DNA of 64,000 bases from Stentor roeselii (lineage: Eukaryota > Ciliophora > Heterotrichea > Heterotrichida > Stentoridae). Below, in pieces: positions 1 through 64,000 of the stretch. The number at the start of each line of letters is the position of its first letter. The stretch's first letter is position 1. The translations under genes were made by a program, and so were the position numbers. The stretch lies in the NCBI GenBank assembly GCA_006503475.1, contig RSEH01000055.1, positions 62,001 to 126,000 of the forward strand, in the 5' to 3' direction. The notes below the pieces were generated by a model. That model made no database searches. It was given only the letters and a program-made list of their open reading frames with translations, and was not told the DNA's origin.

Positions 1-3000
1 AATATGCCTGATCATATCGAGTGTCCCTTGGGAGAAGCTCAAAATCGCACTGGTCAGGAAAATTGTGAAAAATGCTTGAAAGGAACTTATCAGAATGAGT
101 TAGGGCAAAGTGAATGTAAGGTTAGTATTGAAGGGTATTATTGTCCTGATGTTGGAATGTCTTCGATGAAGATATGCCCTGAACGTTATTATTGTTCTTT
201 GACTGGGATTAACGAGTATGAAAGACCTGTTGATAAAAGTCTGCCTGAAGTCTTTCCTGAGGATTTGAGTGAGGACTTGATGGTCAAGTTTCCTCAACAG
301 TGCCCTGCTGGGTATTATTGTCCGAGTAAAACTTCATTTCCGATACCCTGTCCTATTGGAAGCTTTCAAGGCAGTCAGGGCGAAGCCGCTTGTATCAGAT
401 GTCCTCCTGGAAGACTTTGTTTAAATATTTCGACTGTCACGCCGAGTAAATGTCCTTCTGGGAACTTTTGTGTTAATAACAAGATGAATCCTTGCCCTGC
501 TGGGTACTTTTGCTTGGAAAATACACAAACTCAGGACCCTCTTGATTCAAGTGAGTTTAAACCTTTGCCTTGTTTGAAAGGAACTTTTTGCACAGGGGGA
601 AATACGGATTCGAAACCGAACTTGGGTGTTGCTACTAGTGCTCAAAACTGCTCTGAAGGGTTTTTTAATGATAAAGAGGCACAGATTCAGTGTCGAGAAT
701 GTCCTGCTGGGTTTGAATGCTTGGATGTTGGAATGGTTAGTCCTACCTTGTGTAAACCTGGAAGGTATAGGAATTTTGATATTACTATTAAGGAATGTGT
801 TGAGTGTCCTGAAGGAACTTTTTTGCCTGATTATGGAGGAAAATCTATTTCTGATTGTTTGAACTGTTCAGCTGGGATTGTTTGCAATGTTTCAGGCTCC
901 AACACCGAAAACAACTCATACCCTTGCCCGGCAGGTTACTTCTGTATACCAGGAACAAGTCGAGACACTCGAAACAACAACCCTTGTCCAGCAGGTTTCT
1001 ATTGTCTTCCAGGCACAAAAAGTGAAGAAGAGTCTCTGCTTCATAAATGTCCTCCAGGCCGATACTGCGCATCAGCGACAGCAGTAGAAAAAGACGAAGA
1101 ATGCTTGAGTCCCAATAATTGCTCAATAGGGTCGATATGTGAAACTAACAACTACTGCCCTTCGCATACACCTGAAATGATTGCTTGTCCTTCAGGATAC
1201 ACATCAATTGCAGGGTCGTTTTCTATTGATAACTGCACCAGAACATCTCCTACTTTCTATAAAAGTCAAGTTATTCGAACTGTTAAGGCTACTGATTGGA
1301 TGGAACTCACACCACTTGCTTATCACTTGTTTGATTTGAACTTCTTGAAGGAAATTCAAAATGCATCGATTCCTCATGACTACCAACTTCTAATAACTTT
1401 TGACTTTGGAAACAAAAGAAGTCTTCTCTCAAAAAAAGTAGAAAACTTGCTAGTTTCCAACTCATCATATGGCACAAAATTGAGTGTTCCTATGTTATAT
1501 TCATCTAAAAGTATCCTTCTCGACAGTCCTGATGTGAAACTATCAGTGCAAGTTTTTCATGAAGCAAAAGTTTTATTCGAGTTTCAGCTTCTCAACTCAA
1601 GTTACGAAAATTTATTCGGATGGAAAGATTTCCAGGTTCCTTTAGTAAGTGTAAAAGAATTAAAAATTTCTGAAGTAAATTCAGGACTTTATTGCGTATT
1701 AACTGAGAAAATTGGAGAAATCGTTGAAGATCCTGTGAATTTATATAAAACGATTTTTATTGACGAGGAAAATTCTCCTTTAGATCAAAATCCCAGCTTT
1801 GAGTACAGATATTCAATGAGTTTAGTGCTGAAGGAAACAAATATCACTGAAACTCTTCCAACTCCAAAACAAAATACATCTTCTATATGGGAATCTACGA
1901 ATTCCACATCATTAGTGCTTGACTACCTGCCTTACATTACCAACTGTTACCCTGATTTCGGAGCCAATCTTCCAATAAACCAGCTGATAAATAATGACAA
2001 GTGTGTAAAGGTAAAAAGTCCAAATTATGTGAATGTTTTAAACATGTTTCAAAAGGTTAGAGGAGACTCTTGCTCTTATAAACTAACTTGCGACTACTCT
2101 TTAGATATCAACAATTATAAAAGACTTCTTAGATGGTATGAAGCTTATACAGAAGAACATAATTCAAGAGATTCTTCAAAGCTTCAAGTCCCAGTATTTT
2201 ATCTTAGTCGGAATTTTCAGTCTAGTGAAAAAATTAGTGAAATTATTGGATTTCAAAATAAAGTGCCTAGTCAGTTGATACCTGTTCAAAGTGAAATTGT
2301 GATGGATAAACGATCCTGGAAAATTGGAGATGTTCCGAAATCAGTTAGTTTAAGCATTCAGTATTTTGAGAAAAAAGGTAAAACGAAAGAAATTATCAAA
2401 GCTAAAATGGTCTTTTCAGATGTTAAGAATTCTGAAAGTTTTGATAACACTTTCTACTCATTTTCATTCGAATATAAATCTTTGGATTGGTTTTCAAGTT
2501 TCAACTTAAACGCTTTTTCATTTGAGGATTATTGCTTTGTTCTTTTTATTTATTCGAGTTTTTTAATTGCATTTGTGTTCAGTCTAGCTCTGGCTAATTT
2601 TTTGATTTGCCCTGTCAGAGTCAAGTTGAATTTTGTCACTTTTCTCTTGAAACAGTTCTTGAATAGTATTTTTGGTTTCTTGTTAGCATTCTTACCAGTT
2701 TTTACAGCTATTACTTCTGTTTGGCTTGTAATTTATTACTCTGCCTGTCTGGATTATGAAGTGGGAAATTATAATGACACCGTTCCGATTAATGATAGTT
2801 CATCTGAAAGGGCTCTACTCTATCGGACTGGAAGGTTTGGAACCAGTCTTTTTGTTATTGGAATTGCTTGTATATCTTGGAGTGTTGATCTCGCTGTTCC
2901 TATTCCATTTGTAAAAGGTTTCGGATTCGAGAATGAAAAAAATCAGCAAAATGCACAAGGGGAAAATCCTGTTAATCAAGGGCCTTTACTATTGTGGATA

Positions 3001-4380
3001 TTGATATGTTTGGGCTTGAATATAATGCTGGACACAATCGGACAGTTGCCATTATTTTCAGATAATTTTTATATAATTGTCCCTGCATTATTCAGTTTAG
3101 ATCTAATTTTCAACCAACTCTGCCTTATTTTCATCAAAGATTTTTTCTACTCAGTATTTTTCAAAATCGGTCTGAAGATAGGTTTCTGTTGGATGGTCTT
3201 GAATTCCAGAAACTTGTTAAGTGCAATAGGAAGTTTTGTGCTTCTTTATCTATTTCGAGTTTTCTATTCTGGCTTTCTCGAAGAACTTTACCAAAGATAT
3301 GTTTTAAACTGGGTGTTAAAATTATTTCGAAAAATGGAGTTTTTATATGAAAACCTTACACCTCATCAAATTCAAATGGCTAATTCAATATCTGAGATAA
3401 ACGAGCAGTCAGTCTCCCTAATAATATCTTACTTCTACCCAATAGCAACTCTAGGGATTTATTTTTACTATGAAAATGCGAGTTTTCGGCTGATTCAAAG
3501 TCACTTTTTAGTTCTATTTATTTTTACGATTTATTTTCTAGCCTTCGAGCCATTAACCTTAATTTCAATAAACCTGATAAGATCCTCAAGGTTTAACTCA
3601 TACAGTATTCCAAGTGTGTACTCGAGTATCATGTCGATTTACAGAAAAAAACACACAATCTGGGCACTTTGTATAATAAAATACGATTCAGAGGCGAAAA
3701 TAACAAAACAAATTGAAAATCAATGCAAAGTTGCTTGGAGCAGTCAATATTTTCTGATGATTTCTTTATTTTCACTCGGAGTTTTTTGTATTATTTTCGG
3801 GATCAAGCTTTGGCAATACGCTTCTTATGCTCCTTATCTTGATCTGTGGATGTCAGTCATTGCAATACTTACTTATGCTGGATGTTTTGTAATAATGTCT
3901 GTTTGTAAAGTGATTGGGTCTAAAGTCATTTACAAAGTTAACTCGTTGAATCAGTTGTTTCAAAGAGGATTAGACGGAAAAGTTATTTCAAATATCGATG
4001 ATCATATCAGAAATTCTGCTTTAAAGAAAGAAGTTGATAGATTAATGAACAATAATGAAGATTTCTCGTTTTCTGCAGGAGAAATCACTGATAATATCAT
4101 TCGTTTGATAAAGAATGGCTCGAATAGAAAGATTATTATTATGAAGCTTTGCAAAGTTTTTTATGATATTCAATTAAATCGATTTGTTGACTTTGAACAG
4201 TTTTTTGAAGGGATTAAGAATATTAATGACTTATTGTCTGTTGGAAGAATAGAAGAAAAGATTGGAATGGCGATTGACCCTGTTATTAAGGTTGGCTTGG
4301 TCAATGATAAAAGGATTAAAGAAAGAAGGACTTTTCCGAAATATCCCAATGAACTTTTGTATGATTGGGAAAAATCTTAG
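1..4380 (+). CDS. Cysteine-rich repeat, multipass membrane protein (5' end outside window)
   Basis: The frame is open from base 1 with no stop upstream of the first ATG at 4, so the true start probably lies outside the window. About residues 1-410 are tandem cysteine motifs of the CPAGYYC / CPAGFYCLPGT type, as in GCC2/GCC3 (TNFR/ephrin-receptor-like) repeats that ciliates carry in large surface proteins. A roughly 430-residue region with many N-x-S/T sites follows. From about residue 840 there are many hydrophobic segments (first one DYCFVLFIYSSFLIAFVFSL), and a charged cytoplasmic-looking tail of about 140 residues ends the protein. I infer a plasma-membrane or ciliary-membrane protein with a large extracellular cysteine-rich region. 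The layout recalls meckelin (TMEM67), but I cannot confirm that. The gene ends on TAG. Confidence 0.8.
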   Translation, partial: NMPDHIECPLGEAQNRTGQENCEKCLKGTYQNELGQSECKVSIEGYYCPDVGMSSMKICPERYYCSLTGINEYERPVDKSLPEVFPEDLSEDLMVKFPQQCPAGYYCPSKTSFPIPCPIGSFQGSQGEAACIRCPPGRLCLNISTVTPSKCPSGNFCVNNKMNPCPAGYFCLENTQTQDPLDSSEFKPLPCLKGTFCTGGNTDSKPNLGVATSAQNCSEGFFNDKEAQIQCRECPAGFECLDVGMVSPTLCKPGRYRNFDITIKECVECPEGTFLPDYGGKSISDCLNCSAGIVCNVSGSNTENNSYPCPAGYFCIPGTSRDTRNNNPCPAGFYCLPGTKSEEESLLHKCPPGRYCASATAVEKDEECLSPNNCSIGSICETNNYCPSHTPEMIACPSGYTSIAGSFSIDNCTRTSPTFYKSQVIRTVKATDWMELTPLAYHLFDLNFLKEIQNASIPHDYQLLITFDFGNKRSLLSKKVENLLVSNSSYGTKLSVPMLYSSKSILLDSPDVKLSVQVFHEAKVLFEFQLLNSSYENLFGWKDFQVPLVSVKELKISEVNSGLYCVLTEKIGEIVEDPVNLYKTIFIDEENSPLDQNPSFEYRYSMSLVLKETNITETLPTPKQNTSSIWESTNSTSLVLDYLPYITNCYPDFGANLPINQLINNDKCVKVKSPNYVNVLNMFQKVRGDSCSYKLTCDYSLDINNYKRLLRWYEAYTEEHNSRDSSKLQVPVFYLSRNFQSSEKISEIIGFQNKVPSQLIPVQSEIVMDKRSWKIGDVPKSVSLSIQYFEKKGKTKEIIKAKMVFSDVKNSESFDNTFYSFSFEYKSLDWFSSFNLNAFSFEDYCFVLFIYSSFLIAFVFSLALANFLICPVRVKLNFVTFLLKQFLNSIFGFLLAFLPVFTAITSVWLVIYYSACLDYEVGNYNDTVPINDSSSERALLYRTGRFGTSLFVIGIACISWSVDLAVPIPFVKGFGFENEKNQQNAQGENPVNQGPLLLWILICLGLNIMLDTIGQLPLFSDNFYIIVPALFSLDLIFNQLCLIFIKDFFYSVFFKIGLKIGFCWMVLNSRNLLSAIGSFVLLYLFRVFYSGFLEELYQRYVLNWVLKLFRKMEFLYENLTPHQIQMANSISEINEQSVSLIISYFYPIATLGIYFYYENASFRLIQSHFLVLFIFTIYFLAFEPLTLISINLIRSSRFNSYSIPSVYSSIMSIYRKKHTIWALCIIKYDSEAKITKQIENQCKVAWSSQYFLMISLFSLGVFCIIFGIKLWQYASYAPYLDLWMSVIAILTYAGCFVIMSVCKVIGSKVIYKVNSLNQLFQRGLDGKVISNIDDHIRNSALKKEVDRLMNNNEDFSFSAGEITDNIIRLIKNGSNRKIIIMKLCKVFYDIQLNRFVDFEQFFEGIKNINDLLSVGRIEEKIGMAIDPVIKVGLVNDKRIKERRTFPKYPNELLYDWEKS

Positions 4381-6457: not shown

Positions 6458-6469
6458 TTTTAAGATTAG

Positions 6470-6883
6470 TTAAAGTTCGTTAAGGGCCTCTTTTAATGAA
6501 GTCCATAAAATGTCTTGAGCGTCGTTTATTAGATCGTCTGGGGTCTGAAAGTCCTCCTCTATTAAAACTCCCTCTTCCCTATCAAAAAACTCTTGAAAAA
6601 CCTTAAAATCTTCACTTTTTCCCTGTCCTTCATCATAAAAACTTTTAAATTTTCCAAAGAATTCTAAACTTTCTCTTGAAAATCCCTGTATTTCTCCTTT
6701 AAACTCTAAACTTTCCTTATTTTCTAATTCTCTCTGTACTTTAACCTGTTTTTTTCCTTCAAATCTTTGAAATTTTCTTTTCTGTGCAGTGAAAATTTCA
6801 TTTCGAAAGTTAAAAGGTGCTCGATGAGATTGGGGAGTAGAAAATCGAAAAATATCAAATGAGTAACATTTTCCCTTTTGCAT
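6470..6883 (-). CDS. Small hypothetical charged protein
   Basis: A 137-residue frame with an N-terminal basic part (IFTAQKRKFQRFEGKKQ) and an acidic C-terminus (TPDDLINDAQDILWTSLKEALNEL). It is rich in Phe, Glu and Lys, and has no domain I recognise. It is convergent with the kelch gene (12 nt between stops), and its start lies 17 nt from the stop of the ubiquitin-like gene upstream on the same strand. Its position exactly fills the space between two better-supported genes, and its charge pattern is protein-like, so I take it as real. Ends on TAA. Confidence 0.55.
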   Translation of the reverse strand: MQKGKCYSFDIFRFSTPQSHRAPFNFRNEIFTAQKRKFQRFEGKKQVKVQRELENKESLEFKGEIQGFSRESLEFFGKFKSFYDEGQGKSEDFKVFQEFFDREEGVLIEEDFQTPDDLINDAQDILWTSLKEALNEL

Positions 6884-7253: not shown

Positions 7254-8825
7254 ATGGAAGATATTAGAAGCCCGCAAGAAATCATTGCTGATCTGCAGAA
7301 AAAGATTAGGAATGTCTCGGCTGATAGGAAAAGGTATACTGATTCAGCCATGGTCGAGCGCAAAGAGCAGACAGAAAAAATAAAAAAGCTTCAAAAAGCG
7401 ATCCAAACTTTAAAAGGCGACCTTCAAAACATGCAAAAATCAAAAGAGCCTCGTCCAATGACCCGTTCTTCGACATTTATTGAGACCCCAGAGTCCCTTC
7501 TCGAGAAAATCTCTAAAGAATCAAGTGGACTGAAGAAGGTAGACGACGAAATCAAGTCTCTTCAAGGAAAACTGTTCGTCCAAAGAGAAAAAAGCGGAGG
7601 AATAAACGCAAGTCGCGACAATGCAAACGCTTTAAACAAGCAAATGCGTATTCTCGAGAACCGTCTAGACAAAGCAAACCAGAAATTCAACGAAGCAATC
7701 GCTCAAAACAAAGTACTTCGTGAAGAAATCGACAACCTTCGTCGAGAACGTCAAATATTCGACAAAATTTACCAGAAACTCGAAAAAGAACTTCAAAACA
7801 AACGAAAAGAAATGGCAAAAAAAATCGAAGAAGCGAATACAGCTTATGAACAACGTGACAAGGCTCAGGAAGAACTACAAAAAATCAAAGGCCAGTCAAA
7901 AAAAGAACAAGAAGAATTTGAACAAGAATGGAAAAACTTAAACAAACTTATAGAGCAAGATAAGAAAATGAAAGACTTTTTAAAGTTCAAAATGCAGGAA
8001 AAGGAACAAGCGGAAAATACTGACATGCCCAGACATGAAGAAGAAACTTTTAAGAAAAAGAATAAACTTGACCCTCAGGTCATCAATGCAGAAAGGGTTA
8101 AATCTTATGAAGAGGCTTTTAATAAGATACAATCGGCAACTGGAATTCAAGATATTGATGAACTTGTTGAAACTTTCATTAAGGCTGAAGATAAAAATTT
8201 TACTTTGTTTAAGTTTGTCAATGAACTTAGCAATGATATTGAAACTCTTGAAAAGCAGATTCAAGATTTACAGACTGAAATTGAAAAATGTAAACTTCAG
8301 GAAGAACCTGGGTTTATTGCCACAACCAAACTTGCTATTGATGAGAAAATTGAAAAGTATATGAAGAAGACGGAGAGATGTGATAAGGAATATGAGGAAA
8401 AATTGCAGTATTTGAATAGTATCAAAGATGAAGTTAGCAAGTTCTTTTATAGTATTGATTGTCATAAGCATATGGCTAGTGAATTTTTAGGAGAAACTTT
8501 AACGGAAAATAATATTGGACACTTTTTGACACTTGTCGAGCAAAGATGTGAAGAAATCCACCGAACATACCTATTAATGCAAATCCAATCAGGCAAGAGC
8601 GAGTTTTCCTTGCCAGGAACCCAAGGTCCAGGAGGTCGAACCTTACAAAAAATCGACTGTTCAATGATCCTCGACGAAAACGCTAAAGAAGGCGAAGAAG
8701 AAGTAGGTGAATCTCGTCCACTAACTCGAGAAGAGTTCTTAAAGCGAGCTGAAGAACTATGCGAAAAAAACATCGGAATCCCCAAACCCAAACTTCAGCC
8801 TAATAAGAATAAGCCTAAGAAATAG
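7254..8825 (+). CDS. Outer-dynein-arm docking-complex type coiled-coil protein (CCDC63/CCDC114-like)
   Basis: A 523-residue protein, coiled coil over most of residues 1-420. The N-terminus (IIADLQKKIRNVSADRKRYT, then a stretch of K/E/Q heptads) and the C-terminal block (RPLTREEFLKRAEELCEK, ~485-505) match the pattern of CCDC63/CCDC114 (ODAD1), the DC2-type subunit that anchors outer dynein arms to axonemal doublets. Length fits the family (about 530-670). A middle segment around residues 280-330 (RVKSYEEAFNKIQSATG) is also typical. The family call is from pattern, not a search. Its neighbour across an overlap and a small gene is a dynein heavy chain, a suggestive pairing. Composition flips inside the gene: A+C-rich to about 8000, G+T-rich to about 8540, then A+C-rich. 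Confidence 0.72.
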   Translation: MEDIRSPQEIIADLQKKIRNVSADRKRYTDSAMVERKEQTEKIKKLQKAIQTLKGDLQNMQKSKEPRPMTRSSTFIETPESLLEKISKESSGLKKVDDEIKSLQGKLFVQREKSGGINASRDNANALNKQMRILENRLDKANQKFNEAIAQNKVLREEIDNLRRERQIFDKIYQKLEKELQNKRKEMAKKIEEANTAYEQRDKAQEELQKIKGQSKKEQEEFEQEWKNLNKLIEQDKKMKDFLKFKMQEKEQAENTDMPRHEEETFKKKNKLDPQVINAERVKSYEEAFNKIQSATGIQDIDELVETFIKAEDKNFTLFKFVNELSNDIETLEKQIQDLQTEIEKCKLQEEPGFIATTKLAIDEKIEKYMKKTERCDKEYEEKLQYLNSIKDEVSKFFYSIDCHKHMASEFLGETLTENNIGHFLTLVEQRCEEIHRTYLLMQIQSGKSEFSLPGTQGPGGRTLQKIDCSMILDENAKEGEEEVGESRPLTREEFLKRAEELCEKNIGIPKPKLQPNKNKPKK

Positions 8826-9022: not shown

Positions 9023-12000
9023 ATGGAGCATCGGGAACTTGATATCAAAAATGCTTACAACAAACTACTTGAATTTGAACTTGAACTGCAAAAACAAGAA
9101 GGACTTAGAGAAAATTTAGGAAGTCCCTTTGGACGTGCTCCACCTTTCAAATTCAATTTTTCGGCTTCTGCAAGTAAATTGACAAGCCCGAACTACGCGA
9201 GTGGCATGGCTCGACATCCTTTTTTAAGTACTTTTTCGACTGAGGACTTTTCGAGAACTGTTAAAAAGACCAGCTCGGTTCGGAGAATGCGACTTCCGAA
9301 ATTAGTGAAAGTTGTGAATCATGCTTTTCAGCCTAGTCAAGCCTTGTTAGCTCAGATCAGTGAAAGAAACGCGTTGAAAGAGTCTCTTCTTCATAAGTTT
9401 CCATCTAGAGCTCAGGATTTGATAGAAGAGGTTCTAGCGAAAGAAGAAAGTTATGAAACTTTGTATGAAGTTCCTTCGAATAAAATGGGATTCAACCCTT
9501 TTTTAAGACCTAATGGAAAGAATTATTTTTTTCCTTTAGAGATGTTTTATGATGATGAAGTTGATCTTTTGGCTTTGAACTATCCTCAAAAGGCTGTTGG
9601 ACTTTATAATTTAGGAGAAACTTATGAATGGAAACCTTGCAAGGTACTTAAATTCATTCAGGAAACTGGGAAGTTTTTTATTCAATGGGATGTGAATCAG
9701 ACTGAAAAGAAACCGGGTCTTCAAGGAAAAGGGGAAAAAGGGATTAAAGGGAATAAAGGAGAGATTAAAGAAACTTCTAGACATACTGTCAGGTTTTTAT
9801 TTGAGGATGAAGATGCTTTTAATAAGAAAATTGAACAGGCTAAACAGTTTAGAGTCAATTATGAAGCTGGGATTAGATATCTCGCTAGGCTTGAAATGGA
9901 AACTTTCAAAAATCTGTCACAGGTCTTTATTCCTAAGATTCAACTGGAAAGAATTATCAGGAAAATAAAAAGTGATATTAATGAATTGACTCATGAAGAT
10001 ATTTATGATGAGATCAGGAATAATTATGTTAGAGGAGTTGTTGAGTTTACTTTTAAGATACAGCATTTTATTGGTGAAGCGAAAAGATTAGAGAAACCTT
10101 GGCAGGATGAACTACTTACTGCGGAAAATATGCAAGAAAAGACGAGAAATTTTAGACATTCTGATTTGAGTCGGGTTTGTAAGAATTTAGAAAAGGAATT
10201 GTTGTTGACCACAGAAGATTTTGCCTTAGTCCGCCAAGCAATACACAACCTAAGCGAAATATCTGGAGTTCGTATCTACAAGATCCTGATCGACCTATCA
10301 CACAAAAAGACCGTTCACGAAGACAAAAAACTAAAATGGGTATTAAAAGACTGGTACAGCGACGTGAAGTTAAAAGTAGACAAATACGTGAAAGGTTCAA
10401 TAAAAATTCTAAAGCAAAGCGAATCATCACTAGACAAGCAGTTTTACATGTCTCAAGTAATGTTCGAGAGTAACCTTCAAGTATGCATCAAGAAGTCCAC
10501 TGACGATTTGATCGATCATCTAAAGACTTACTACGCAGTTCTCCCTTTCAACGGTTTCGACCTAGAAATATTTGATCATCTTTCAGTTTCAGTCATGCAG
10601 ACCCGTCAAAAAATGAGAACAAAGCTGAATCTTTACAAAGACCACGAAGTCGACTTTCTGATCGAAAAAAGACTGAAAGAAAAATCTTGCAAAGGGAATC
10701 AATTCGAAGCCGCTCTTGAATGTTTATCGAAAATACTTCAAAGACAAATATTTTCTAAGAATTATTCAAATTATGATAGTCCTGCGCCACTTATGATCTT
10801 GTCAATTATTTCTAGATTTTCATTGGCGAGAGAAGTTAAAGGAAGGAAGTTCAAATTGTTTACTATTGCGAAAGCTTTAGAAATGAAAAAAGACTCGCTT
10901 TTTGCTACTTCTTTGAAGAAAGTTGCTGGAAGTATTTTTAGGGAAAATGAAATTTCTAGGATTATGGATAATACGGCAAGAACGGGGAGAAGCTCTAGGA
11001 AAATACCTTTACTTGCTGAGTCGAATATTAAGTGGCTTGATCCTAATTATGAGGAAGGAGGACTGTTTATTTACCCGAATTTAAGATTTATTGAAGAATC
11101 TTTGAGGGATATTTTGAAATCTCCGATTAAGTCGTTTGAAAAAATTAAGAGTATTAGTAAGCAAAAAATGCTTGATGATAAACTTTTTATTGCAAACTCA
11201 GGAGAATGCTACTCGCAAGCATTATCAGAAATTCTAGACATTCTTCAATTCAGTCTTCTAGGTCCCCATGCAATTCTACGAGTCCTATCAAAATTCGAAT
11301 ACCTGGTAAAAGACTCTCCCGAAAAGATCCTAGAAGAAATAATGATATCCACCTCCAACAACTACAAAGAGCTTCACCTAGCAATGAAAAGAATAAAAAG
11401 AGACTCCGAAGAAATCGAGAACCTTCTTCCAACAACAATGAACTTCGGTTTATTCCAACTGGAACTAGGTAAAATAAAGCTTGAAATATTAAACAACTCA
11501 AAAGAACTACTTCTCGCAATATTAAATGAAATCGAGAAAGAAAAATGCAAACTTCTAGACGAAGCTCACTGCAACTTCAAGCTTCTAATAAAAAAACTCG
11601 TCAGTCCTCCGACAGACGTTGAAGAATTCGTCGACATTCGAGACTACCTCGACAAAAAAGGAGACATCGAAGACTTCCGCCCAATAAAAAACTCTTTGCA
11701 CGTAATTGAAATCATCACTGGCATCATGCACGAGTTTCACTTCGCGAAAACAGGAAACATCGAAGAAAGATACTGGCAGACCTTATCTTGGCCTAGAGAA
11801 CTCGCTGAAGGTCAGAAGAAAGCAAAGAAAACAATAGAAAAACTTTACCCTCATTTTAAAATGAAGATCAGGGAAAACATTGAAGAACTTAACTTGAACA
11901 TTGATGGAATTGTCAAGGAAATCACAGCTTTTAGCGGATATAGTAAACTCGAAGAAGCCAGGGACTATGCAGGCAGGGCAAAGGACATCGCAGAGAAATT

Positions 12001-15000
12001 AAAGAAATTTCAACAAGAAAGTAACAAAATCAACACAAGAGAACATATTTTAAAATTCGATATTTCAGATTTTTCAAGAATAGATAAATTGATTGAAAGT
12101 TTCGAGAAATATGAAAAACTTTGGCAGTTTATTTATGATTGGAACTCAAAGTCGAATGAATGGACTAATCTGGCATTTAGGATGATTGACTCTAAGCAAG
12201 TTGAAGAAACTTTACGTTATGGGTTTAATTTGTTGAATATGATTGAAATGAACTGTGGCTCGGATACTGTCTTGATGTCTATTTCGCTTGTTATGCATAC
12301 AAAGTTAAATCTTTTTGAAAAATTCTTGCCGGTTATTTTTTGTCTTCGAGATGAATCTATTGAACTTAGACATTGGAAGGAAATATGGAATTTGATTAAA
12401 GATCCTATTCCTTCTAATTTGGAAAGGGAAAAAATGGATAGACAGACACTGCAGAATCTTTTGGATAAGGATGTACTTAATAAACTTATGCAGATTTCTC
12501 AAATTGCTTCACGGGCACGACATGAGTCGGAAATTGAGAAGACTTTGAAAAAGATTAAAAGTGATCTTTCTATGCAAGTGCCTACTTATACTTTAGAAGA
12601 TTTTGATAGAATTGAATTGGTAACTGATATTAATGGCCTGGCAGATATAGTAAGAGAGCATATCCTAACTCTAACCTTCTTACAAAAAAACGTTCGCTAT
12701 ATAAGCCATTGTAAATCCGCAATAGAGCAAGAAAAAAGAAAAGCAATAGAAATAGAAAGTTTCCTCGAAGACTTCGGCAAACTTCAACAAAACTTCAAAG
12801 AACTTTTCCCTCTTTTCCTCCTTCCAGTAATCCCCACATAGGAAATATTTGACGATTTAAAATCAGAGTCAAACCGAATAAAAGAAGTCCAAAACTTCAT
12901 CGAAAAAAAAATCGAAATGATAAAAGTCGACATAAGCAACTACTACTTACCAGATGACTACAAACAAGTACTTGATGTGAATGAAAGTCTCGACGAAATC
13001 CGGAAAATCATGAAACAAAACCTTGAAAAAAAGCAAAACAACTGCTCAAGACTCTGTTTTTTCGGATACGAATCTCTCATCATTTTTTTAACTGAGTTCG
13101 CAAAGAGAAAATCACTGAAAATTTCTTCACTTTTTCCTGGAATAGAATCGATTGATATTTCTGAAAGTAAAATTCAAGCTGTTACCCGCCCTGGATACAT
13201 AATGACCCTTGCCAGGCCAGTCACTTTATTTCTGGTTAATAAACCTTTAACACTTGATACTTGGGTTATTGATTTGGAAAGTGCTTTAATTCAAACTTTT
13301 AAGGAAAATTTGATTCAAACTTTAGAATGTCAGGAGGATTCTTGGATGAAACAAAAAGATTTGCAGGTTTTGATTGTTGCTCAAATGCTGAATTTTTCTC
13401 AGAAGGCTTTTGAAGTAGGTTTTAGGGAAAGTCATTTGAAAAATTTGCAGAGACTTGTGAGTTTTGTTAGAGAAGGGAACTTTCACTTGGAAAAACTTGC
13501 TGTTGTTATGATTTCTCAGGTGAAAATAATGGAGAAACTTGAAGAGGATGGATTAAATTGGGACTTTACTTTGAAGTATGTGATGGGTGAGGAACTTCGA
13601 GTGGAGGTTCTTCATTATTCGCTTGAGTATTGTTATGAGTTTCATAGAATGGATGATGTTTCTTATATTCCGACACCTATTAGTGAAAAATTGATGCTTC
13701 ATATTGTTAACTCGTTTGCGGCTTACCAGCCCGTAATGCTAACAGGTTGCGGTACTTCAGGCAAAACAAGTGCAATAAAAGAAATCGCCTTAATATGCGG
13801 CAAAGGACTCTGCTTCTGGACAGCAGTTCCAGGCACATCTCTCGACACTTTATTCAGCGCAGTCTCCGGGTGTGCATCAGGAGGTTTTTGGGCCGTGATA
13901 GAAGAAATTCACAACACAGAAGCCCTAGTCTTCAGTTCTCTTCTCTATTACATGAAAGAAATAGTAAAAGGTTTAAAATCAAAGCAAAACCGAATTCATT
14001 TATTCGAAAAGTTCTACAAAATAAAAGAAGGTTTCAGTGTTTTTTTCACATCTTCAGGAAAAAATGAGATTCCTGAATTTTTAACTCAAAATCTAAGAAC
14101 TCTTGAAGTAACTCGCCCTGATTTCTTAGTTTTAGTGCAGGCGAAACTTCAAGCTTTAGGTTTTGACCTGACTTTCGCTGATCAAATCGTTTTGGCATTC
14201 AAGTTGATATCAGAGAACTTCGAAAGCCTTGTCGGTGAGAACCAAAGAACGAGTCTTACCAAGTCTTTGAGTTACTTGAATAAACTGATCAGTCTTTTGC
14301 CTCAAGAACTGACTGAAACTAACATAGTAGAGTCGTTTAACAAGCTTTTCATTTCAGAAGTTGCAGGACATGAAAAAAAGATTTTAAATGAAATTCTTAC
14401 TTCTGTGTTTTCAATGTCTAGATATGAAAATCAATATGATGATAAAGATTCAGTCATTTTTGGTCCTGGACTTGCACAGTCACCTGAAATGAAACAGCAA
14501 GTTCGAGTGATTCTTGATATGATTAAAAGTACCCATAAATGGGTCTTCATTGTAGGACCTCCTTGCAGTGGAAAGTCGACTTTGCTTAGTCTTGCAGGTA
14601 AAGAACATGGAATTCAAAGCAAGTCTTCTTTTTTACTTCACAAGCTTCAAAATGTGAGTCCAGAAGTCATCATGAGGCTAGTCGGCCTTTGTGAAAGATA
14701 TGAAGACCTCGGGAATTCTTACTGTTCTTACCCTATCAACAAAGGTGAAAAACCTTCTCCTTTAGACTGGGTCGTGATTGACTCTCCCTTGCCTTTAGAC
14801 TGGGACACTTTAAACTACATCACTCGCGGCGAGCTTTACCTAAACATGGCAAGAAGAGTAACAGTCCCAAAAGACATGAAATTTTTCGTGGAATGTGAAA
14901 ATTTGCAAGATTTCACCCCATCCGACCTAAGAAAATACGGAATCGTGTCACTATCAGAATCTGGAATCACGGCGCAAGACATTTTTATCAGCAAGCTTTC

Positions 15001-50028: not shown

Positions 50029-50967
50029 TTATTCTCGGATTTCATCGTTTAGAAGAGCCAGACTTTTACGGAGTTCAGGACTTGAGTCGTAGTCACTTAG
50101 GGGAAAGACTTCTACGATTAGGAAACTCATGATGATCATTTCGGAGACTACTAACAATGAATTTGTATAAAGTGTAATCTCCTCAGGTGAAAATTTATCA
50201 GTATTCGCAATTAACCCCGAATAAGTAAAAATCGCAATCACCAAAGGCTGGAACTCTGTAAAAAGCAGTCCAAGTTTAATAATCATAAACTTATGCAAAA
50301 CTTTCAAAGTACTTAAAACCGGTAAAGAATTCGCATAGACTCCAAAATTAAACATAGCCGAGAGTGCAACAAGTGAAGAAAACGATGTGCATCCAGAAAG
50401 TATCAAGAAAAGTTTAGTCCCTCTGCCCTTATGCACTTTCGGATCATCAGCTGCGATGATATAAATGAATCCAATGAAAGTGCAAGTAGTAAGCACGGCA
50501 CAGAGTTGATAAACAAAAGAGCGAATCCTTTCAATATACCATCTGGCAGTTTCTTCTGAATCGATTACTCTAATTTTAATGCAAGGCAAGATGCACTTGG
50601 GTGCCCTTTGAGTGACAAGATTAAGATAAAGCCTTTCTTTTGAGTACAAGTTTTGACCATCGACCACTGTCCACCCGATCATCCTTTCCACATAAGCTAG
50701 AAAAGAAGCCAAACAAACAGCCTTCAGCACTGTGAGTGTAAACTGAATTGATCGTAATTCTGAAGTGTTCATCAATTGAACCCAGGAAATCCACCCGATA
50801 GTGATTGGCATTAAATATATGCTTGATAATAAGAATTGCGCTTCTTTATACTTCAGGTTACGAAAAGATTTCATCATTTTCGAAATGTTCATGATCGATA
50901 CCAGGATTAAAATCACTGCAGACACCCTGATTCCAGCACTAGCTTGAAGATTGTTAGAATCGACCAT
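50029..50967 (-). CDS. TMEM184 / organic-solute-transporter-alpha family membrane protein
   Basis: A 312-residue protein with about seven hydrophobic segments. Spacing and landmarks fit the OST-alpha/TMEM184 (DUF300) family: an extracellular N-terminus, SSIYLMPITIGWISW in TM2, a middle loop with APKCILPCIKI, and a late KLGLLFTEFQPLVIAIF segment. Members transport bile-acid-like organic solutes or serve in membrane trafficking; substrate unknown here. Slightly shorter than animal homologues. Ends on TAA. Confidence 0.8.
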   Translation of the reverse strand: MVDSNNLQASAGIRVSAVILILVSIMNISKMMKSFRNLKYKEAQFLLSSIYLMPITIGWISWVQLMNTSELRSIQFTLTVLKAVCLASFLAYVERMIGWTVVDGQNLYSKERLYLNLVTQRAPKCILPCIKIRVIDSEETARWYIERIRSFVYQLCAVLTTCTFIGFIYIIAADDPKVHKGRGTKLFLILSGCTSFSSLVALSAMFNFGVYANSLPVLSTLKVLHKFMIIKLGLLFTEFQPLVIAIFTYSGLIANTDKFSPEEITLYTNSLLVVSEMIIMSFLIVEVFPLSDYDSSPELRKSLALLNDEIRE

Positions 50968-51169: not shown

Positions 51170-52840
51170 ATGGGTCAAGACCAATCTCAGCCTTCTCTTC
51201 GTCTAATCCGAGAGCAAAGGACGAGGAAGGTGAAGCAAAGATCAGTTGAAAAGCCGAAAGAAATCTCAACTTTAAAGACACTAAAAATCTTAGTCAATGG
51301 GCAGAACATCGAAGTTACAGTCACTGATGATACCTTGACTTGTGGATGGTTGTTATCTGAAACGATTCGATCGTATTCGGGTCCTGGCAACTTAGTTGTG
51401 CTTAGGACTTTCAAAAACCTTGAAATACTTGACACTTGGCTCACCATTTTTGATAGGTCTCTTCAGCCTTTCAAAGATAATGAAAAAATAGTAGGAGTAC
51501 TTGAGGCACCTGTTGTGGGACCCACACAGGTTAGACACTTCAGTCCTTTGAAAGTCATCGGGAAGGGAGGGTTTTCAACTGTTGTCATGTGTAGGAAGAA
51601 GGATTCGGGGTATTTGTATGCTGTCAAGATTATGTCGAAAGAGTTTGTTATTAAGGAAGAAAAAATACCGCAGATATTGACTGAAAGGAATATTTTGATT
51701 AAATGCTCAAATCCCTACATAGTAAAACTTCACTGGGCATTCCAAACCGTAACATTCATCTAGGACAAAAACCTTTACCTTGTGATGGATTTCTGTCCAG
51801 GAGGTGAGCTTTTTTACCATCTTCACAACATAGGAAGACTAAGTGAAGACCAAGCAAAGTTCTACATAGCAGAAATCCTATCAGGTATCGAGTACCTTCA
51901 CGGTAAAGACATCGTATACCGAGACCTAAAGCCTGAAAACATCCTTCTCGACATCGACGGCCACGTTCGCATAACCGACTTCGGCCTTTCCAAAGAAGAA
52001 ATCGGGCCAAAAGACCAAAGCTACAGTTTCTGCGGGTCTCCAGAGTACATGTCTCCAGAAATGCTCAAAGCTTCAGGCCACGGGCGAGAAGTCGACTTCT
52101 ACTCAATCGGAGCTCTTTTATATGAGATGTTGACAGGACTTCCACCTTTTTACGACGCGAATAGGTCTCAGATGTACCTGCGAATCTTAAACGAGGACCT
52201 GGAATTTCCGAACTACCTCAGCCAAAATGCGAAAAATTTGATTTCTGGACTACTTTCGAAGGACCCAACGAAAAGACTAGGAAGTGAAAATGGAATTGAA
52301 GAAATCAAGACTCATCCTTGGTTAAAGTCAATCAATTGGAAGAAAATCCAGGCGAAAAAAGTTCATCCACCCTTCAGGCCGAGTCTTCATCATAGTAACT
52401 TTGACCCGGAGTACTTTAAGATTCAGGTCAGTTTAGATGAATTTGATGTTCCGCCTGCTTCGAATTGTGGACCTTTTGAAGGATTTAACTTTTCTATTTT
52501 ACATGAAAACTCGCCGAAAGAAGCCAAGTTGATGAATGTTGTTGATATGGCTTCTATTTCTACAACTGTCAGTCGCACTGGCTTTTTCAGTCGTAATAGC
52601 TCTCAGGCTAAACTTAGTCTTATGGCTGATGATGAAGATGAGAAAAGGGTTGAAGAGGAAAAAGGATCGAAAATTGCTATTGTCAATAGTTTGAGTAAAA
52701 GACTTAGTGTTCCTGATACTTGTAATACTCATTCTACTGATGAGTCTCAGGCTTTTGATACTGGAATCTTTAAAAAGTTGACTGCTCCGAAACAGAAAGT
52801 TCATTTGGTTAAGAGAAATAGCAAAAAAAACGAAACCTAG
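51170..52840 (+). CDS. AGC-family Ser/Thr kinase, probably N-myristoylated, one 15-nt intron
   Basis: Two frames join across 51749-51763 into 551 residues. The N-terminus MGQDQSQPS fits an N-myristoylation site (Gly2, Ser6). Residues ~40-115 precede the kinase domain. Kinase motifs: glycine loop GKGGFSTVVM (~128), AVKIM Lys (~150), YRDLKPEN (~244), DFGLSKEE (~264), then CGSPEYMSPEM. The intron falls just before the hinge (DKNLYLVMDFCPGGELF). The C-tail carries the AGC hydrophobic motif FEGFNFS (~430) and continues ~120 residues. Closest in pattern to PKC/S6K/cGMP-kinase-like AGC enzymes; no cyclic-nucleotide domain is present. ATTATAAAATG marks the start. Ends on TAG. Confidence 0.92.
51749..51763 (+). 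other. 15-nt intron in the AGC kinase gene
   Basis: GTAACATTCATCTAG, A at position 10, phase 0. It joins HWAFQT to DKNLYLVMDF, the exact kinase hinge order. Confidence 0.96.
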
Positions 52841-58849: not shown

Positions 58850-59434
58850 CTAATCCAGCTTCCAGGCTGTTTTCATGAGTTCAACAAAGTGGTCATCATT
58901 ATCAACACTAGAGCTAACAGCAGCATAATACTCATCCCACTCATCCTTCGAGATCCTTCCATCGCGGTTCCTATCATTAAAGCTGCTTAAAAACTCCGCA
59001 AAAGCCTGTGCTTCAGTCATCTGTCCACTCTGCACCTTCGGGTGAAACCTGCAATTATAAACCCCTCTCAAATCAGAAGCATCGACCCATCCATTGCCAT
59101 CTTTATCAAACTTGAGAAAAGCCTTATCAACAAGAGCCTGCCTTCTAGAATTCGGTTTTCCCCTGATGCCGACAAGAAATTCATCAAAGCAGACAGTCCC
59201 GTCTCGATCCTTATCAAAGTAATCAAACAAGACGCTGTACTCCTGAGGACTGAGGTTAACTCCATTTTCTCGAAGCCCAACAGCGAACTCTTGACGGTCG
59301 ACCTTCTTGTTCCCGTCATACGAGTCAAGAGCCCTGAAAGTTCGGCCCAGTTCCCGGATAGTCCGGGAACCTCGTTTTTCCAGTTGTTGTCTGAGACTGG
59401 CGAGAACTTCTACTACTCCACGTTGTGCTTGCAT
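58850..59434 (-). CDS. Calcyphosine-like EF-hand calcium-binding protein
   Basis: A 194-residue protein, the usual length of calcyphosine/CAPSL (189-208). Four EF-hand loops: DSYDGNKKVDRQEF (~37), DKDRDGTVCFDEF (~73), DKDGNGWVDASDL (~109) and DRNRDGRISKDEW (~153). The first loop is less regular; the others keep the acidic ligands. The spacing and the leader LRQQLEKRGSRTIRELGRTF are typical of calcyphosine. Family members are cytosolic Ca2+ sensors, enriched in ciliated cells of animals. Codon use is notably more GC-rich than its neighbours. Ends on TAG. Confidence 0.9.
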   Translation of the reverse strand: MQAQRGVVEVLASLRQQLEKRGSRTIRELGRTFRALDSYDGNKKVDRQEFAVGLRENGVNLSPQEYSVLFDYFDKDRDGTVCFDEFLVGIRGKPNSRRQALVDKAFLKFDKDGNGWVDASDLRGVYNCRFHPKVQSGQMTEAQAFAEFLSSFNDRNRDGRISKDEWDEYYAAVSSSVDNDDHFVELMKTAWKLD

Positions 59435-59553
59435 TTTGACTTTATTAATATGGAAGTTATGGACTATTTTAGCTGAAATTTGACTGAGGATTGAAAGAAT
59501 GCATTGAGGAATATGGGTTAATGATAGAATGGTTACTCGGGATTAGGATGGTC

Positions 59554-60771
59554 TTATGGTGGTTGGTTGCTTGGAACTGCCTGGGATGAGTTTAAAGTCG
59601 CTATCAGGGAACTTGAGTGAAGAAGAGAAGGCTTCCAACCTTCGAACCATCGATGATCGAGAAGCTGGATTGATGATGGACGAAGCTCTTGAAGAGGCTC
59701 GGTCATTAAGGATATGACCTCGATGGCTTCACGGCTTAGTTTTTTGTTTGGTTTTATTTTGCATTCTAGGTTTTTGTTTAGCATCTTTGTTAGGTTTCTT
59801 GCTTCGAATGGGTGTCTACCGTGAAGGAGAATGTAAAGGATTATACCTGCTGCGAATATGTCGATTTTACAGTCGTAGTCCTCGTCTCTTAACATCTCAG
59901 GAGCTACGTAGCCTGGTGACCCGCATTTCTTGTTTTGCAAAAAGTGACTTTCATAAGCAAGTCCTAAATCAATAAGTTTAAATTCACAGTTTTCCGGTCC
60001 AGTCATTAAGATATTTTCAAGTTTTAAATCACGATGAACAATATTCCGACAATGCATAAATTCAAGAGTTTCCAATAGTTTTTTAGTAAAAATCCTAGAT
60101 TCTTTTTCAGTAAAGCGATTTTTTTCAGAGATTCTCTGCAACAAGCTTCCAAATGGTAAATACTCTAAAACCAGATAAACTGATAAAGAGTCTTCATAAA
60201 CAAAGAACAACTTGCAAATATTAGGATGTTCAATATTCCTATATATCTGAATTTCACTTGCAAGGTTCAAAAGGCTTTGTTGTTTAATCAATGTTTTTTT
60301 TTCTACCTTTTTAACTGCGTATTGTTTAGACCTTTCAACACATTCACAAAGGTAGACAATTGCTGTGCTTCCTTTTCCGATTTGCTTTAAAATCACGAAG
60401 TCCTCTTCGAAATTAGTCAAAATACAAGAAGATTTTAATAAAATGATGCATTTTTCTAAATCTGCTTCAGATGAAGTGTAAAAAATGTCAGAGTTTAAAT
60501 GAAAGCCATATAATGGGCCTGATGGTTTTTCTTCTAGGAAGGGCTCAAAGGTTGATAATGACAAATTTAAAGCTCTTGTAGGTGATTTGTTCTTGTCAAG
60601 TTCCACGATCTGCGTTTTAGAAATACGGAAAATTGAAAATTTTAAGCTAGATCCACTTTGATATGATAACTGCAGATCGGTATACTCGTTTAACTCTTGG
60701 ATTTGATTTTTGTTTTTAATCGTTTCCCATACAGTTCGGCTTTCAGAATCGTTGAATATTGACTGAAACAT
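59554..60771 (-). CDS. Ser/Thr protein kinase with N-terminal PH-like region
   Basis: A 405-residue protein. Residues 1-~115 look like a PH-type beta fold ending in a helix (SEADLEKCIILLKSS). Kinase domain ~125-380: GKGSTAIVYL (~132), AVKKV Lys (~153), VHRDLKLEN, then DLG in place of DFG (LIDLGLAYES), CGSPGYVAPEML and RPSSIQLLDHRWF. Catalytic residues are all present, so it should be active; DLG is tolerated in several kinase families. Pattern is CaMK/AGC-like, as in many ciliate PH-kinase expansions. Substrate unknown. Ends on TAA. Confidence 0.88.
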   Translation of the reverse strand: MFQSIFNDSESRTVWETIKNKNQIQELNEYTDLQLSYQSGSSLKFSIFRISKTQIVELDKNKSPTRALNLSLSTFEPFLEEKPSGPLYGFHLNSDIFYTSSEADLEKCIILLKSSCILTNFEEDFVILKQIGKGSTAIVYLCECVERSKQYAVKKVEKKTLIKQQSLLNLASEIQIYRNIEHPNICKLFFVYEDSLSVYLVLEYLPFGSLLQRISEKNRFTEKESRIFTKKLLETLEFMHCRNIVHRDLKLENILMTGPENCEFKLIDLGLAYESHFLQNKKCGSPGYVAPEMLRDEDYDCKIDIFAAGIILYILLHGRHPFEARNLTKMLNKNLECKIKPNKKLSREAIEVISLMTEPLQELRPSSIQLLDHRWFEGWKPSLLHSSSLIATLNSSQAVPSNQPP

Positions 60772-62206: not shown

Positions 62207-62220
62207 TGATTAAGAAATAA

Positions 62221-63477
62221 CTAATGATTTTTATCCTTTTTTTTATCTCCTTCTGACTTTTCTGTACTTTTTTCCACCTTTTTCTCCTTTTCAGGTTTTT
62301 CCACTTTTTCAGTAATTTTCATGCTTTCATCTTTCGGTCCTTTTTCAGGTTTTTCTTGTTTCGGTTGTTCTTTATCTAAAAGTTTTTCATTTTTCTCATC
62401 ACTTTGCCCAGCAGCCTTTCTTTTTTCATTCATTTCCCTGACCCACCTGACGATCCAAGCGATAGATCGATACCCGATTTCAACTTTTCTCTCAAAAACA
62501 ATAAGAGTTGCGAAAGAAGCAGATTTTTTGCAGTTGGGTGCCTTAAGTTCTTTGACAACTTCATGTAAAGTGCTGATTGCAAATACAAGGTAAAAATAAG
62601 TCACAGCAGCAGCGAATCCACATTCAATAAGATTAGTGTTCAAGACATTGAAAAGCACGAAGACCATATTGACCACCATGATGATCGCCATTCTTATTCC
62701 ATTCGTGTCGCTGTACTTTTCTTTCAGGTTGTCTGCCAAGATCGAGGCGCAGACGAGTGAAACGAGTAAAATCGCGTAAGCTGCAATGAAGGCGTCTTCT
62801 CCTACTATGGAAAAATTGACAATTATGATACCTTCTGTTAAACTCATCACGATTTCTAAGACTATCGCTGATGTCGACCCCTGAAGTGATTCTTTGTATT
62901 TCTTGATGATCAGGTAACAGACTATTATCACTGCCACTGCTATTAGGATGAAAAAAGATAGCACTATTGATAGGATTAGGAAAATCCGGTTTATCACTAG
63001 GAAGAGAAGAGGAGGTGTCGCTTCTAAGGCAAGGAATAATAGAGCAAGAGCGTCGGTTGAAAAGGCATCGACGTCAACACTATCTTTTATTAGATCTTTG
63101 GCTTGGATAGCTACATTTTTAGCGTCTTCGCCAAACTCTAATGCTTTTTTCTTGAGTTTTTCCTGGGTTTCTTTACTTGGGATTACTTTTTGAGCTGCTT
63201 GAAGAGCTTCTTCTGCTGCTTTCGAGTCAAGAGCTGGGTACTTCTGGTGGTCTTTTGAGTTTTCACCTTCGTTTGATGGCTTTGATTGATTATCAGTACC
63301 TTTGGTTAGGTTTCCAAGGACATTGAACAAGGCACCAGTGGTTTTTTTCGCCCGTTCAAGGTCTTCTGAAAGATCAGGATGATTTTTAGCTTTTGATGAA
63401 TCATCTCTTTTAGCTAAGGAATCAGTTTGTTCTTTACTCAGAATAGGCTCCTCTAGGTTGATATCCTTATAATTCAT
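62221..63477 (-). CDS. Multipass membrane protein with charged tails, unrecognised
   Basis: About 418 residues from the chosen start (MNYKDINLEEP), preceded directly by GAATATA. An in-frame ATG 30 nt further up (63507) lacks this. The N-terminal ~140 residues are charged, with an Ala/Lys helix (EEALQAAQKVIPSKETQEKL). About five or six hydrophobic segments span ~145-310. The C-terminal ~80 residues are a Lys/Glu/Pro low-complexity tail (EKPEKGPKDE, EKVEKPEKEKKVEKSTEKSE). No family recognised. Ends on TAG. Confidence 0.78.
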   Translation of the reverse strand: MNYKDINLEEPILSKEQTDSLAKRDDSSKAKNHPDLSEDLERAKKTTGALFNVLGNLTKGTDNQSKPSNEGENSKDHQKYPALDSKAAEEALQAAQKVIPSKETQEKLKKKALEFGEDAKNVAIQAKDLIKDSVDVDAFSTDALALLFLALEATPPLLFLVINRIFLILSIVLSFFILIAVAVIIVCYLIIKKYKESLQGSTSAIVLEIVMSLTEGIIIVNFSIVGEDAFIAAYAILLVSLVCASILADNLKEKYSDTNGIRMAIIMVVNMVFVLFNVLNTNLIECGFAAAVTYFYLVFAISTLHEVVKELKAPNCKKSASFATLIVFERKVEIGYRSIAWIVRWVREMNEKRKAAGQSDEKNEKLLDKEQPKQEKPEKGPKDESMKITEKVEKPEKEKKVEKSTEKSEGDKKKDKNH

Positions 63478-63655: not shown

Positions 63656-63991
63656 TCACTTCTTTCCAAAAACCTTGAAAAAGTCAGAAGGAAACCCAGC
63701 CCGATATGCCATCAAAGGCTTTTCCTGCTTTTTCTGGGAAAACCCGATGGAACTTGTGGAAAACTTCTCTTGGCCTGAGTAGTGGTTATAAGAATTCCGA
63801 TATTTCTGGTTTTCTTTTCTTTCGAAGTCAACTAAAAACTTGTCGATTTCATCAGCAAAGTTTCCTTGAGAATCTGGGTAAATGAAGCAGCTTTTTCCAG
63901 CGGTGTCAAGATTATGTCTGGACTGTTCAACATCTTTGACCATTCGAACTGACTCCAACTCAGTTTCAGGAGTTTTCGGCTGAGAAGACAT
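63656..63991 (-). CDS. Hypothetical small protein at window end
   Basis: A 111-residue frame from ATG at 63991 (9 nt from the window edge, so an upstream exon or start cannot be excluded). Polar; no domain recognised (IDKFLVDFERKENQKYRNSY, RAGFPSDFFKVFGKK). Ends on TGA, one of three genes here that do. Codon choice is gene-like, unlike the flanking spacer. Confidence 0.55.
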   Translation of the reverse strand: MSSQPKTPETELESVRMVKDVEQSRHNLDTAGKSCFIYPDSQGNFADEIDKFLVDFERKENQKYRNSYNHYSGQEKFSTSSIGFSQKKQEKPLMAYRAGFPSDFFKVFGKK

Positions 63992-64000
63992 CTCATTGCA

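Follow-up and report, generated by a model that had tools for sequence, protein, structure and literature searches.

Strand composition alternates beyond synonymous expectation

The stretch of DNA analysed here (64,000 nucleotides, hereafter the window) raises the question of what process could switch one strand back and forth between G+T-rich and A+C-rich composition, often inside a single gene. The initial annotation, which described these switches, had set beforehand that the claim should be dropped if synonymously shuffled sequence did as well. At synonymous third positions, the + strand alternates between G+T-rich (K) and A+C-rich (M) tracts, forming a sawtooth across positions 1–64,000 that was recovered by correlations, HMM and kernel fits, and this goes beyond what is seen in synonymous shuffles: a two-state HMM improved on a one-state model by 555 nats in the window, against 42–54 nats in four synonymous shuffles, and by 2242 nats over all 314 kb, against 324–325 nats in two shuffles. 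In a model-free analysis, the T/C choice and the G/A choice at synonymous third positions were autocorrelated, and correlated with one another, over ~60–100 codons, with YY and YR correlations falling below zero at about 150–275 codons, a structure absent from within-gene synonymous shuffles. This correlation pattern held in the window and in two further samples of 100 kb each, one from the rest of the same contig and the other from 10 other contigs. Across 264 kb, decoded blocks had a median length of 610 bp for all sequence (n = 313 blocks) and 522 bp for coding sequence (n = 144 blocks). For 13 of the 14 switch positions listed originally (the 14 being 8 K-to-M and 6 M-to-K), the coding-only HMM placed a boundary no more than 30 bp away, against 7.8% for random positions; the remaining one, position 5560, was 152 bp from the nearest boundary. 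In the literature consulted, which was mostly open-licence, we recognised no report of sub-kb strand alternation.

Could codon usage, translation speed or mRNA structure set the third positions? The signal is indeed strongest there, but this explanation is refuted, and we give it practically no chance. Noncoding DNA follows the state: with the state learned from coding sequence only, strand-symmetrised noncoding T/(T+C) was 0.759 vs 0.616 (7025 and 7324 sites), and the sign of the effect was identical in 16 of 16 contexts. Strand-tied contexts were used here, a free-parameter noncoding HMM having tracked GC content instead, and genes were called with a home-made gene finder that rests on the first two codon positions only. 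Leucine first positions also track the state, and the signals of + and - strand genes are positively correlated at short range in + coordinates, so that genes on both strands share a common state on the DNA strand, in agreement with the original statement that gene strand does not set it. Finally, tandem Piwi paralogs were mostly opposite in state over their aligned protein, and their sites differ; in this comparison a single set of sites supplies both states and substitution counts, which leaves the discordance as the usable result, and C114, one of four Piwi genes, had no long ORF and was left out. The proposal of a strand-asymmetric process that acts at the level of DNA and is not codon usage is thus supported.

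Point sites with oppositely biased flanks

The two types of boundary differ in shape, which the initial annotation had not noticed, nor had it noticed the participation of noncoding DNA. At K-to-M boundaries the switch is abrupt, on a scale of about 30 bp, and modelling them as a ramp of 160–200 bp cost 78–121 nats, whereas M-to-K boundaries are diffuse over about 120–160 bp. In some subsets the K-to-M optimum departed from an exact step, a width of 30 bp scoring +0.4 nats in the remainder of the same contig, +1.2 nats in a held-out 50 kb and +0.6 nats for + strand genes. The asymmetry persists inside single ORFs and on both gene strands. Because only one boundary type is sharp, the picture of domains turned on and off gives way to one of points: the genome carries point sites, each with two-sided, oppositely biased flanks.

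Over ~450–550 bp to either side of a site, T is favoured over C and G over A on whichever strand points its 3' end towards the site. This bias arises by transitions, with C-to-T stronger than A-to-G and the latter clearly present, while GC and GC3 are constant and the purine fraction has no trend around sites. Across a site, fourfold GC skew passes from +0.398 to -0.428 and TA skew also inverts; the inversion takes place within about 30 bp and the bias fades gradually between sites. A fixed-range kernel outperformed a linear interval-scaled profile in each of three sets of intervals, the margins being 126, 52 and 40 nats, and an erf-width profile scaled to the interval lay only 17 nats below a Gaussian kernel (intervals <2 kb).

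Sites occur roughly once per 0.7–1.6 kb in the sampled DNA, and HMM decoding, which overlooks short intervals as well as sites outside coding sequence, extrapolates to ~30,000 genome-wide. Near-random placement gave the best fit to the autocorrelation, in fits that used diagonal errors and simulated each parameter set once, and decoded spacing in ORFs of at least 3 kb appears regular (24 intervals, CV 0.39). Coding sequence is mildly avoided (0.56 vs 0.74 sites per kb), and sites are phased with gene ends, the coding strand being in state M at the 5' end of genes (93 ends) and in state K at the 3' end (83 ends). Both flanks fell within one ORF for 84 of 174 K-to-M boundaries and 132 of 171 M-to-K boundaries.

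K-to-M sites in the window were mapped by HMM, without strand, and are given as the last K and first M informative positions, with a median location error of ~15 bp in simulation. The dynein heavy chain gene (9023–21889, + strand; Pfam and HMM) holds 10 of them, at 10207–10210, 11191–11194, 12646–12652, 13723–13726, 14659–14662 (14634 in the combined model), 15874–15877, 17143–17146, 18550–18553, 19372–19375 and 21142–21145. Upstream, sites lie at 891–894, 1377–1380, 6557–6563 and 7343–7346, and within an ODAD1-like gene (Pfam) at 8528–8531 (8518 in the combined model). Downstream, they lie at 23752–23755, 25828–25834, 29577–29580, 31613–31616, 33685–33688, 35332–35335 and 41049–41052, in - strand genes at 46188–46191 and 49134–49137, and at 50152–50155, 59935–59938 and 63346–63349.

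Sequence at the sites was examined for shared words, and no fixed motif was found at K-to-M sites. ATA/TAT reached 8.78, against an expectation of 7.35 ± 0.43 with no site at TA; plain TA, at 16.11, was intermediate between the values for none at TA (15.30 ± 0.45) and all at TA (17.23 ± 0.35). Once boundary-choice bias was simulated, ATA and ATAT stayed at z 3.0–3.3, uncorrected for the number of words tested, and enrichment of GTAA and TA was no longer outstanding. Contig ends carry the telomere repeat CCCTAACA (547 exact 24-mer matches, 0 in the control), which is of the heterotrich type, as in Blepharisma, and indicates the somatic genome of a heterotrich ciliate. A search with an 18S primer pattern gave no match.

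Resection, replication and transcription as possible sources of the bias

The flank polarity is that of 5'-to-3' resection from a break, which suggests reading the sites as breaks. In the strand-coordinated, single-switch mutation clusters left by bidirectional resection, as described in PMC6786661, the top strand has C altered to the left of the break and G altered to its right, the switch falling at the break itself; the polarity here is equal, the K-to-M point corresponding to the break. Those clusters are single events of up to dozens of kb, with mostly C changes and an ssDNA mutagen, whereas the present sites are fixed points in long-term compositional equilibrium, with a range of ~0.5 kb and A-to-G changes as well. 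Meiotic resection tracts, for which PMC12453631 gives means of ~800–900 nt, are similar in length to the halo here. Among the causes suggested at the outset, the polarity and range are best matched by tracts of single-strand damage. Macronuclear origins at close spacing are a poorer match, because a fixed-range kernel is preferred (by 126 nats over the linear interval-scaled profile) and because mutations in the ciliate macronucleus are normally not inherited.

The main rival to a link with germline-limited DNA (IES) is that efficient origins of germline replication, which may themselves lie within IESs, occupy the sharp sites, with an A+C-rich leading strand as in yeasts and forks meeting in the diffuse M-to-K zones. 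Origins are usually sharp and termini diffuse, skew at yeast and human origins likewise jumps sharply and returns gradually between sites, the sign is the same as in yeast, where the leading strand is A+C (PMC3459929), and the erf profile is close to the Gaussian kernel. We nevertheless consider origins rather unlikely, since an efficient one would be needed about every 1–1.5 kb, compared with a spacing of ~40 kb in yeast, and since the fourfold skew change of ~0.83 per site contrasts with a 9% jump at yeast origins (0.09 over 10-kb windows, and so not strictly comparable; PMC3459929). In addition, the range is fixed rather than following the whole interval. The portion of the same paper on C. 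albicans centromeres describes a large and local jump of 74% that returns to the mean in ~3 kb and is argued to be non-replicative; there is one such centromere per chromosome, whereas jumps occur in all contigs sampled here. It is less probable still that the sites are meiotic (Spo11) break hotspots with no relation to IESs, with a halo from resection and ssDNA damage. Polarity and tract length would be the same as for breaks generally, the genome has one Spo11-like gene and sites mildly prefer gene ends, but a mean hotspot width of 189 bp (PMC12453631) is at odds with the cost of a ramp of similar width, and one hotspot per 1–1.5 kb, often within genes, would be unusual.

Comparably improbable, in our view, is that transcription or chromatin gives rise to the bias, as at the ends of fungal genes, and does so repeatedly at cryptic units in long genes. 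The M state at 5' and K state at 3' ends of coding strands has the GC polarity of unicellular fungi, in which gene ends are C-biased 5' and G-biased 3'; however, fungal AT skew is described as largely constant along genes (PMC3315797), whereas here TA skew inverts, sharply and at intragenic sites. Nor are sites confined to gene ends, given those in the dynein gene alone, and the boundary asymmetry is present in single ORFs and on both gene strands. If the non-template strand gains G and T, transcription running outward from a site would yield the opposite sign. A scrambled, inverted locus with one long-range skew, in which the blocks are germline pieces (MDSs) from opposite strands, would account for sharp switches that leave the coding sense intact and that occur in noncoding as well as coding DNA, but M-to-K boundaries should then be as sharp as K-to-M ones; odd-even scrambled germline pieces were dropped because M-to-K boundaries are diffuse, and we hold this explanation to be very unlikely. 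The subtelomeric strand bias of nanochromosomes (Nyctotherus, Halteria; reportedly also described by Prescott and Dizick 2000) resembles the present one in being defined relative to a DNA end and symmetric for both strands. In Nyctotherus, the skew described in PMC2633312 is one of purines over ~130 nt at chromosome ends, whereas here a keto skew surrounds internal points.

Candidate positions of germline-limited DNA

Our best guess, which we put forward tentatively and as falling somewhat short of probable, is that the sites are positions of IESs at which cutting recurs in the germline lineage, and the points may mark places where germline-only DNA was removed. A double-strand break at the site would be followed by 5'-to-3' resection on both sides, leaving single-stranded DNA of the observed polarity; the exposed 3' overhangs would undergo C-to-T and, to a lesser extent, A-to-G change, and templated repair would restore the locus. 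The least certain steps are that the recurrent break sites would be micronuclear IES positions and that cutting would occur now and then in nuclei feeding the germline. Over evolutionary time, a mutational halo would be written around each IES, and part of the sharpness of the inversion in somatic DNA may stem from removal of the sequence between its flanks.

In favour of IES positions we count the sharp K-to-M and diffuse M-to-K boundaries, the two-sided fixed range, near-random placement, one-strand transitions, the resection-like polarity and tract length, the heterotrich telomere, ATA/TAT at sites and the differing sites of tandem Piwi paralogs, together with the presence of at least 12 Piwi genes in the genome, which would be expected were DNA elimination guided by small RNAs. 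The 39,799 IESs on 41 Mb reported for Blepharisma, ~70% of them intragenic, resemble the sites in density, intragenic location and mild gene depletion, a similarity that is no proof; the sections of that report describing them mention no compositional halo (PMC9942856), and IESs in the present species are putative. Counting against are the intermediate frequency of plain TA, the lack of a fixed motif, gene-end phasing, the lower share of K-to-M than of M-to-K boundaries within one ORF and the regular decoded spacing in long ORFs. A-to-G change also counts against, since cytosine deamination alone does not predict it, and inheritance requires an additional, putative step because known IES excision occurs in the developing soma.

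Strand-bias sawtooths are known at replication origins, though of low amplitude and at spacings of tens of kb; those described here lie ~1–1.5 kb apart, are roughly tenfold stronger and are anchored at points within genes. It is possible, and in our estimate a shade less likely than the IES assignment itself, that the somatic genome is a near-base-resolution fossil map of germline-limited DNA, written by strand-polar mutation at recurrently cut sites, in which case somatic sequence by itself could reveal IES positions and past germline cutting. Should the points be IES sites, the germlines of uncultured ciliates could be mapped from their somatic genomes, and programmed DNA elimination would prove to be mutagenic to the germline, leaving heritable mutational scars; should they be origins, the origin map would be extraordinarily dense.

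Introns, paralogs and telomeric ends

Introns were considered as occupants of the sites and rejected: none of 27 GTAA..TAG 15-mers lay within 30 bp of a K-to-M boundary (3.5% expected), a comparison with little power. The 27 occurrences at length 15 compare with 14–29 at other lengths from 11 to 25. Introns of 15–16 nt had two in-frame cases; a 15-nt candidate identified from the sequence and an ORF break lies in the dynein gene (12827–12841, + strand), away from any site. The 5' part of the dynein gene is single copy in the assembly, and no dynein relatives were found on viral contigs. A paralog with 76% DNA identity was too short to be informative. The PiggyBac family search returned no matches, and neither did its controls. 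When telomeric ends were treated as sites, 11 of 14 agreed over 0–500 bp, with the signal mostly in the first 200 bp and partly due to leftover telomere-like sequence.

An alternating strand bias that belongs to the DNA strand

At each codon whose third position allows a synonymous transition, that position was scored as keto (T/G) or amino (C/A). When T/C and G/A choices were scored separately, the two were found to cross-correlate at short range and to anticorrelate at ~150–275 codons, a pattern that recurred in the window, in the remainder of contig 390 (RSEH01000055.1) and in ten other contigs, and that was absent from within-gene synonymous shuffles. A two-state model (HMM) of G+T-rich (K) and A+C-rich (M) stretches of the + strand gained 555 nats in the window, versus 42–54 in four shuffles, and 2242 nats over 314 kb, versus 324–325 in two shuffles. 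The alternation described in the initial annotation is therefore real. The comparison with shuffled sequence that it had proposed left the real signal far above the shuffles, and 13 of its 14 switch positions lie within 30 bp of an HMM boundary; the confirmed alternation is sharper than had been described.

The claim that gene strand does not set the state was borne out by the signals of + and - genes, which are positively correlated when read in + coordinates. In addition, the state trained on coding sites only separated noncoding T/(T+C) (0.759 versus 0.616), with a consistent sign in 16 of 16 contexts. The strand bias is thus a property of the DNA strand. First positions of leucine codons track the strand state, and some amino-acid ratios, I/(I+V) among them (0.52 versus 0.63), move in the expected direction, while K/(K+R) is nearly unmoved and N/(N+S) shifts opposite to expectation. 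Over 264 kb, GAA/GAG, GGA/GGG, GGC/GGT and CGC/CGT respond little or not at all, unlike other pairs.

Sharp boundaries and their flanks

The two kinds of boundary differ in sharpness. For K-to-M boundaries (n = 174) a step was most likely, with losses of 1.6, 8.2 and 41 nats at widths of 30, 60 and 120 bp, whereas M-to-K boundaries (n = 171) had a best width of 120–160 bp, 24 nats better than a step. None of 20,000 permutations gave a difference as extreme. The window and the remainder of contig 390 both show it, as do ten other contigs and 50 kb of sequence obtained after the emission model was fixed, and it persists within single ORFs and for + and - genes separately; in some subsets the K-to-M optimum was 30 bp instead of a step, by a margin of 0.4–1.2 nats. 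Since the model handles both directions alike, the asymmetry lies in the data. Centred on K-to-M boundaries, the signal forms an antisymmetric sawtooth, from about +1.5 to about −1.5, returning to zero by ~600–650 bp. By our own estimate, the geometry is very probably one of point sites with two-sided flanks.

Fourfold T/(T+C) on the strand that points its 3' end at the site is ~0.85 close by and ~0.70 far away, and G/(G+A) is ~0.45 and ~0.33, respectively. As GC3 stays at 0.32–0.34 throughout and the purine fraction has no trend, the bias amounts to transitions, with C-to-T and A-to-G both falling on one strand and C-to-T the stronger of the two (~0.9 versus ~0.5 logits, calculated by hand). 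Across the site, fourfold GC skew passes from +0.398 to −0.428 and TA skew from +0.229 to −0.254.

No fixed motif was left at the sites once the bias of boundary choice had been simulated. TA frequency lay between the expectations for none and for all of the sites at TA, and ATA/TAT frequency was at the level expected if all were. CG dinucleotides were fewer than simulated at K-to-M points (2.1 versus 3.05; 172 boundaries), as was TA at M-to-K points (5.8 versus 7.9; 166 boundaries).

Range, spacing and candidate causes

With an additive kernel of fixed range (a 567-bp Gaussian or a 528-bp plateau), the fit to 155 intervals was 126 nats better than with an interval-linear profile; the advantage was 52 nats for the 126 intervals <2 kb and 40 nats for the 70 intervals ≥1.5 kb. 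An interval-scaled erf profile came nearer, at 17 nats worse than the kernel for intervals <2 kb. The best fit to the 314-kb autocorrelation combined near-random site placement and a 400–500-bp plateau kernel (chi-square 27.5, 49 bins), and mean spacings among the best fits were 700–1600 bp. A second set of fits agreed, with chi-squares of 41–49 for gamma shapes of 0.7–2. Moderate regularity is possible, with shape 6 and an exponential kernel fitting at 45.6; strong regularity (shape 20) is ruled out by a chi-square of 254. In the 51.7 kb of ORFs ≥3 kb, 35 sites were decoded, or one per 1.48 kb; extrapolated genome-wide, this density would give ~30,000 sites. The 24 decoded intervals in these ORFs appear regular (CV 0.39), an argument against placement being entirely random, unless short intervals go undetected.

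The interpretation in the initial annotation, which had closely spaced macronuclear origins among its candidate causes, is partly supported. The sites could be replication origins, and the sign is yeast-like, with an A+C leading strand (PMC3459929), but the amplitude, the fixed range and the spacing all count against this. The polarity is that of bidirectional 5'-to-3' resection, which is described as leaving strand-polar mutations (PMC6786661). Tract length is of the same order as in meiotic resection, where reported means are ~800–900 nt, and the sites are sharper than the 189-bp meiotic hotspot width given there (PMC12453631). Blepharisma is reported to carry 39,799 internal eliminated sequences (IESs) on 41 Mb, of which ~70% lie within genes, where they are slightly depleted (PMC9942856). 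Precise germline cut sites as dense as the sites here would suggest IESs, removal of which would also conceal any gradual transition within them. IES excision occurs in the developing soma, and inheritance is thus the weak link: it would require either some cutting in nuclei that contribute to the germline or a different germline process acting at the same sites. That breaks at IESs explain the sawtooth is accordingly a tentative reading, to which we give somewhat less than even chances.

Relation to genes

The sites mildly avoid coding sequence (127 of 191 coding; 0.56 versus 0.74 per kb), and their placement is phased with genes. Across the 314 kb, which include the window, the coding strand is in the M state where genes begin (93 5' ends) and in the K state where they finish (83 3' ends), resembling the GC polarity described in unicellular fungi (PMC3315797). 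Both flanks lie deep within one ORF for 84 of 174 K-to-M and 132 of 171 M-to-K boundaries. Of 510 codons called with confidence in tandem Piwi paralogs (52% amino-acid identity), 29% agree in state, implying that sites move with time and that the protein does not fix where they lie; in two further Piwi pairs, with 30% and 32% identity, agreement was 82% and 46%.

The gene at 58851–59437 has a paralog on contig C441 (locus L044; 76% DNA identity) that shares its block order, with the M-to-K boundary displaced by ~150–200 bp.

Genome setting

The assembly, in which the window spans positions 62001–126000 of contig 390, totals 44.39 Mb in 522 contigs and is taken as a heterotrich somatic genome. 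Exact 24-mer matches to repeats of CCCTAACA number 547, overlaps included, versus 0 for the reversed control, and among the matches listed, all those on contigs of known length were at contig ends. The same repeat is given for Blepharisma telomeres, and there UGA is read as tryptophan (PMC9942806), whereas here long genes remain open with standard stops. A candidate 15-nt in-frame intron (12827–12841, +) breaks the dynein heavy chain ORF, and another, a five-codon insert with a stop, lies at the ORF break at 51761–51763 in a gene assigned as kinase-like by eye; in a scan of GTAA..TAG words over lengths, 15 nt gave no clear peak.

The assembly encodes one Spo11-like gene. Its Piwi-domain genes number at least 12, including a tandem pair on contig C50 with mostly opposite strand states. 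At 14 telomeric ends (loci L030–L043), the first 200 bp tend to the polarity of site flanks, as do 11 of the 14 over 0–500 bp.
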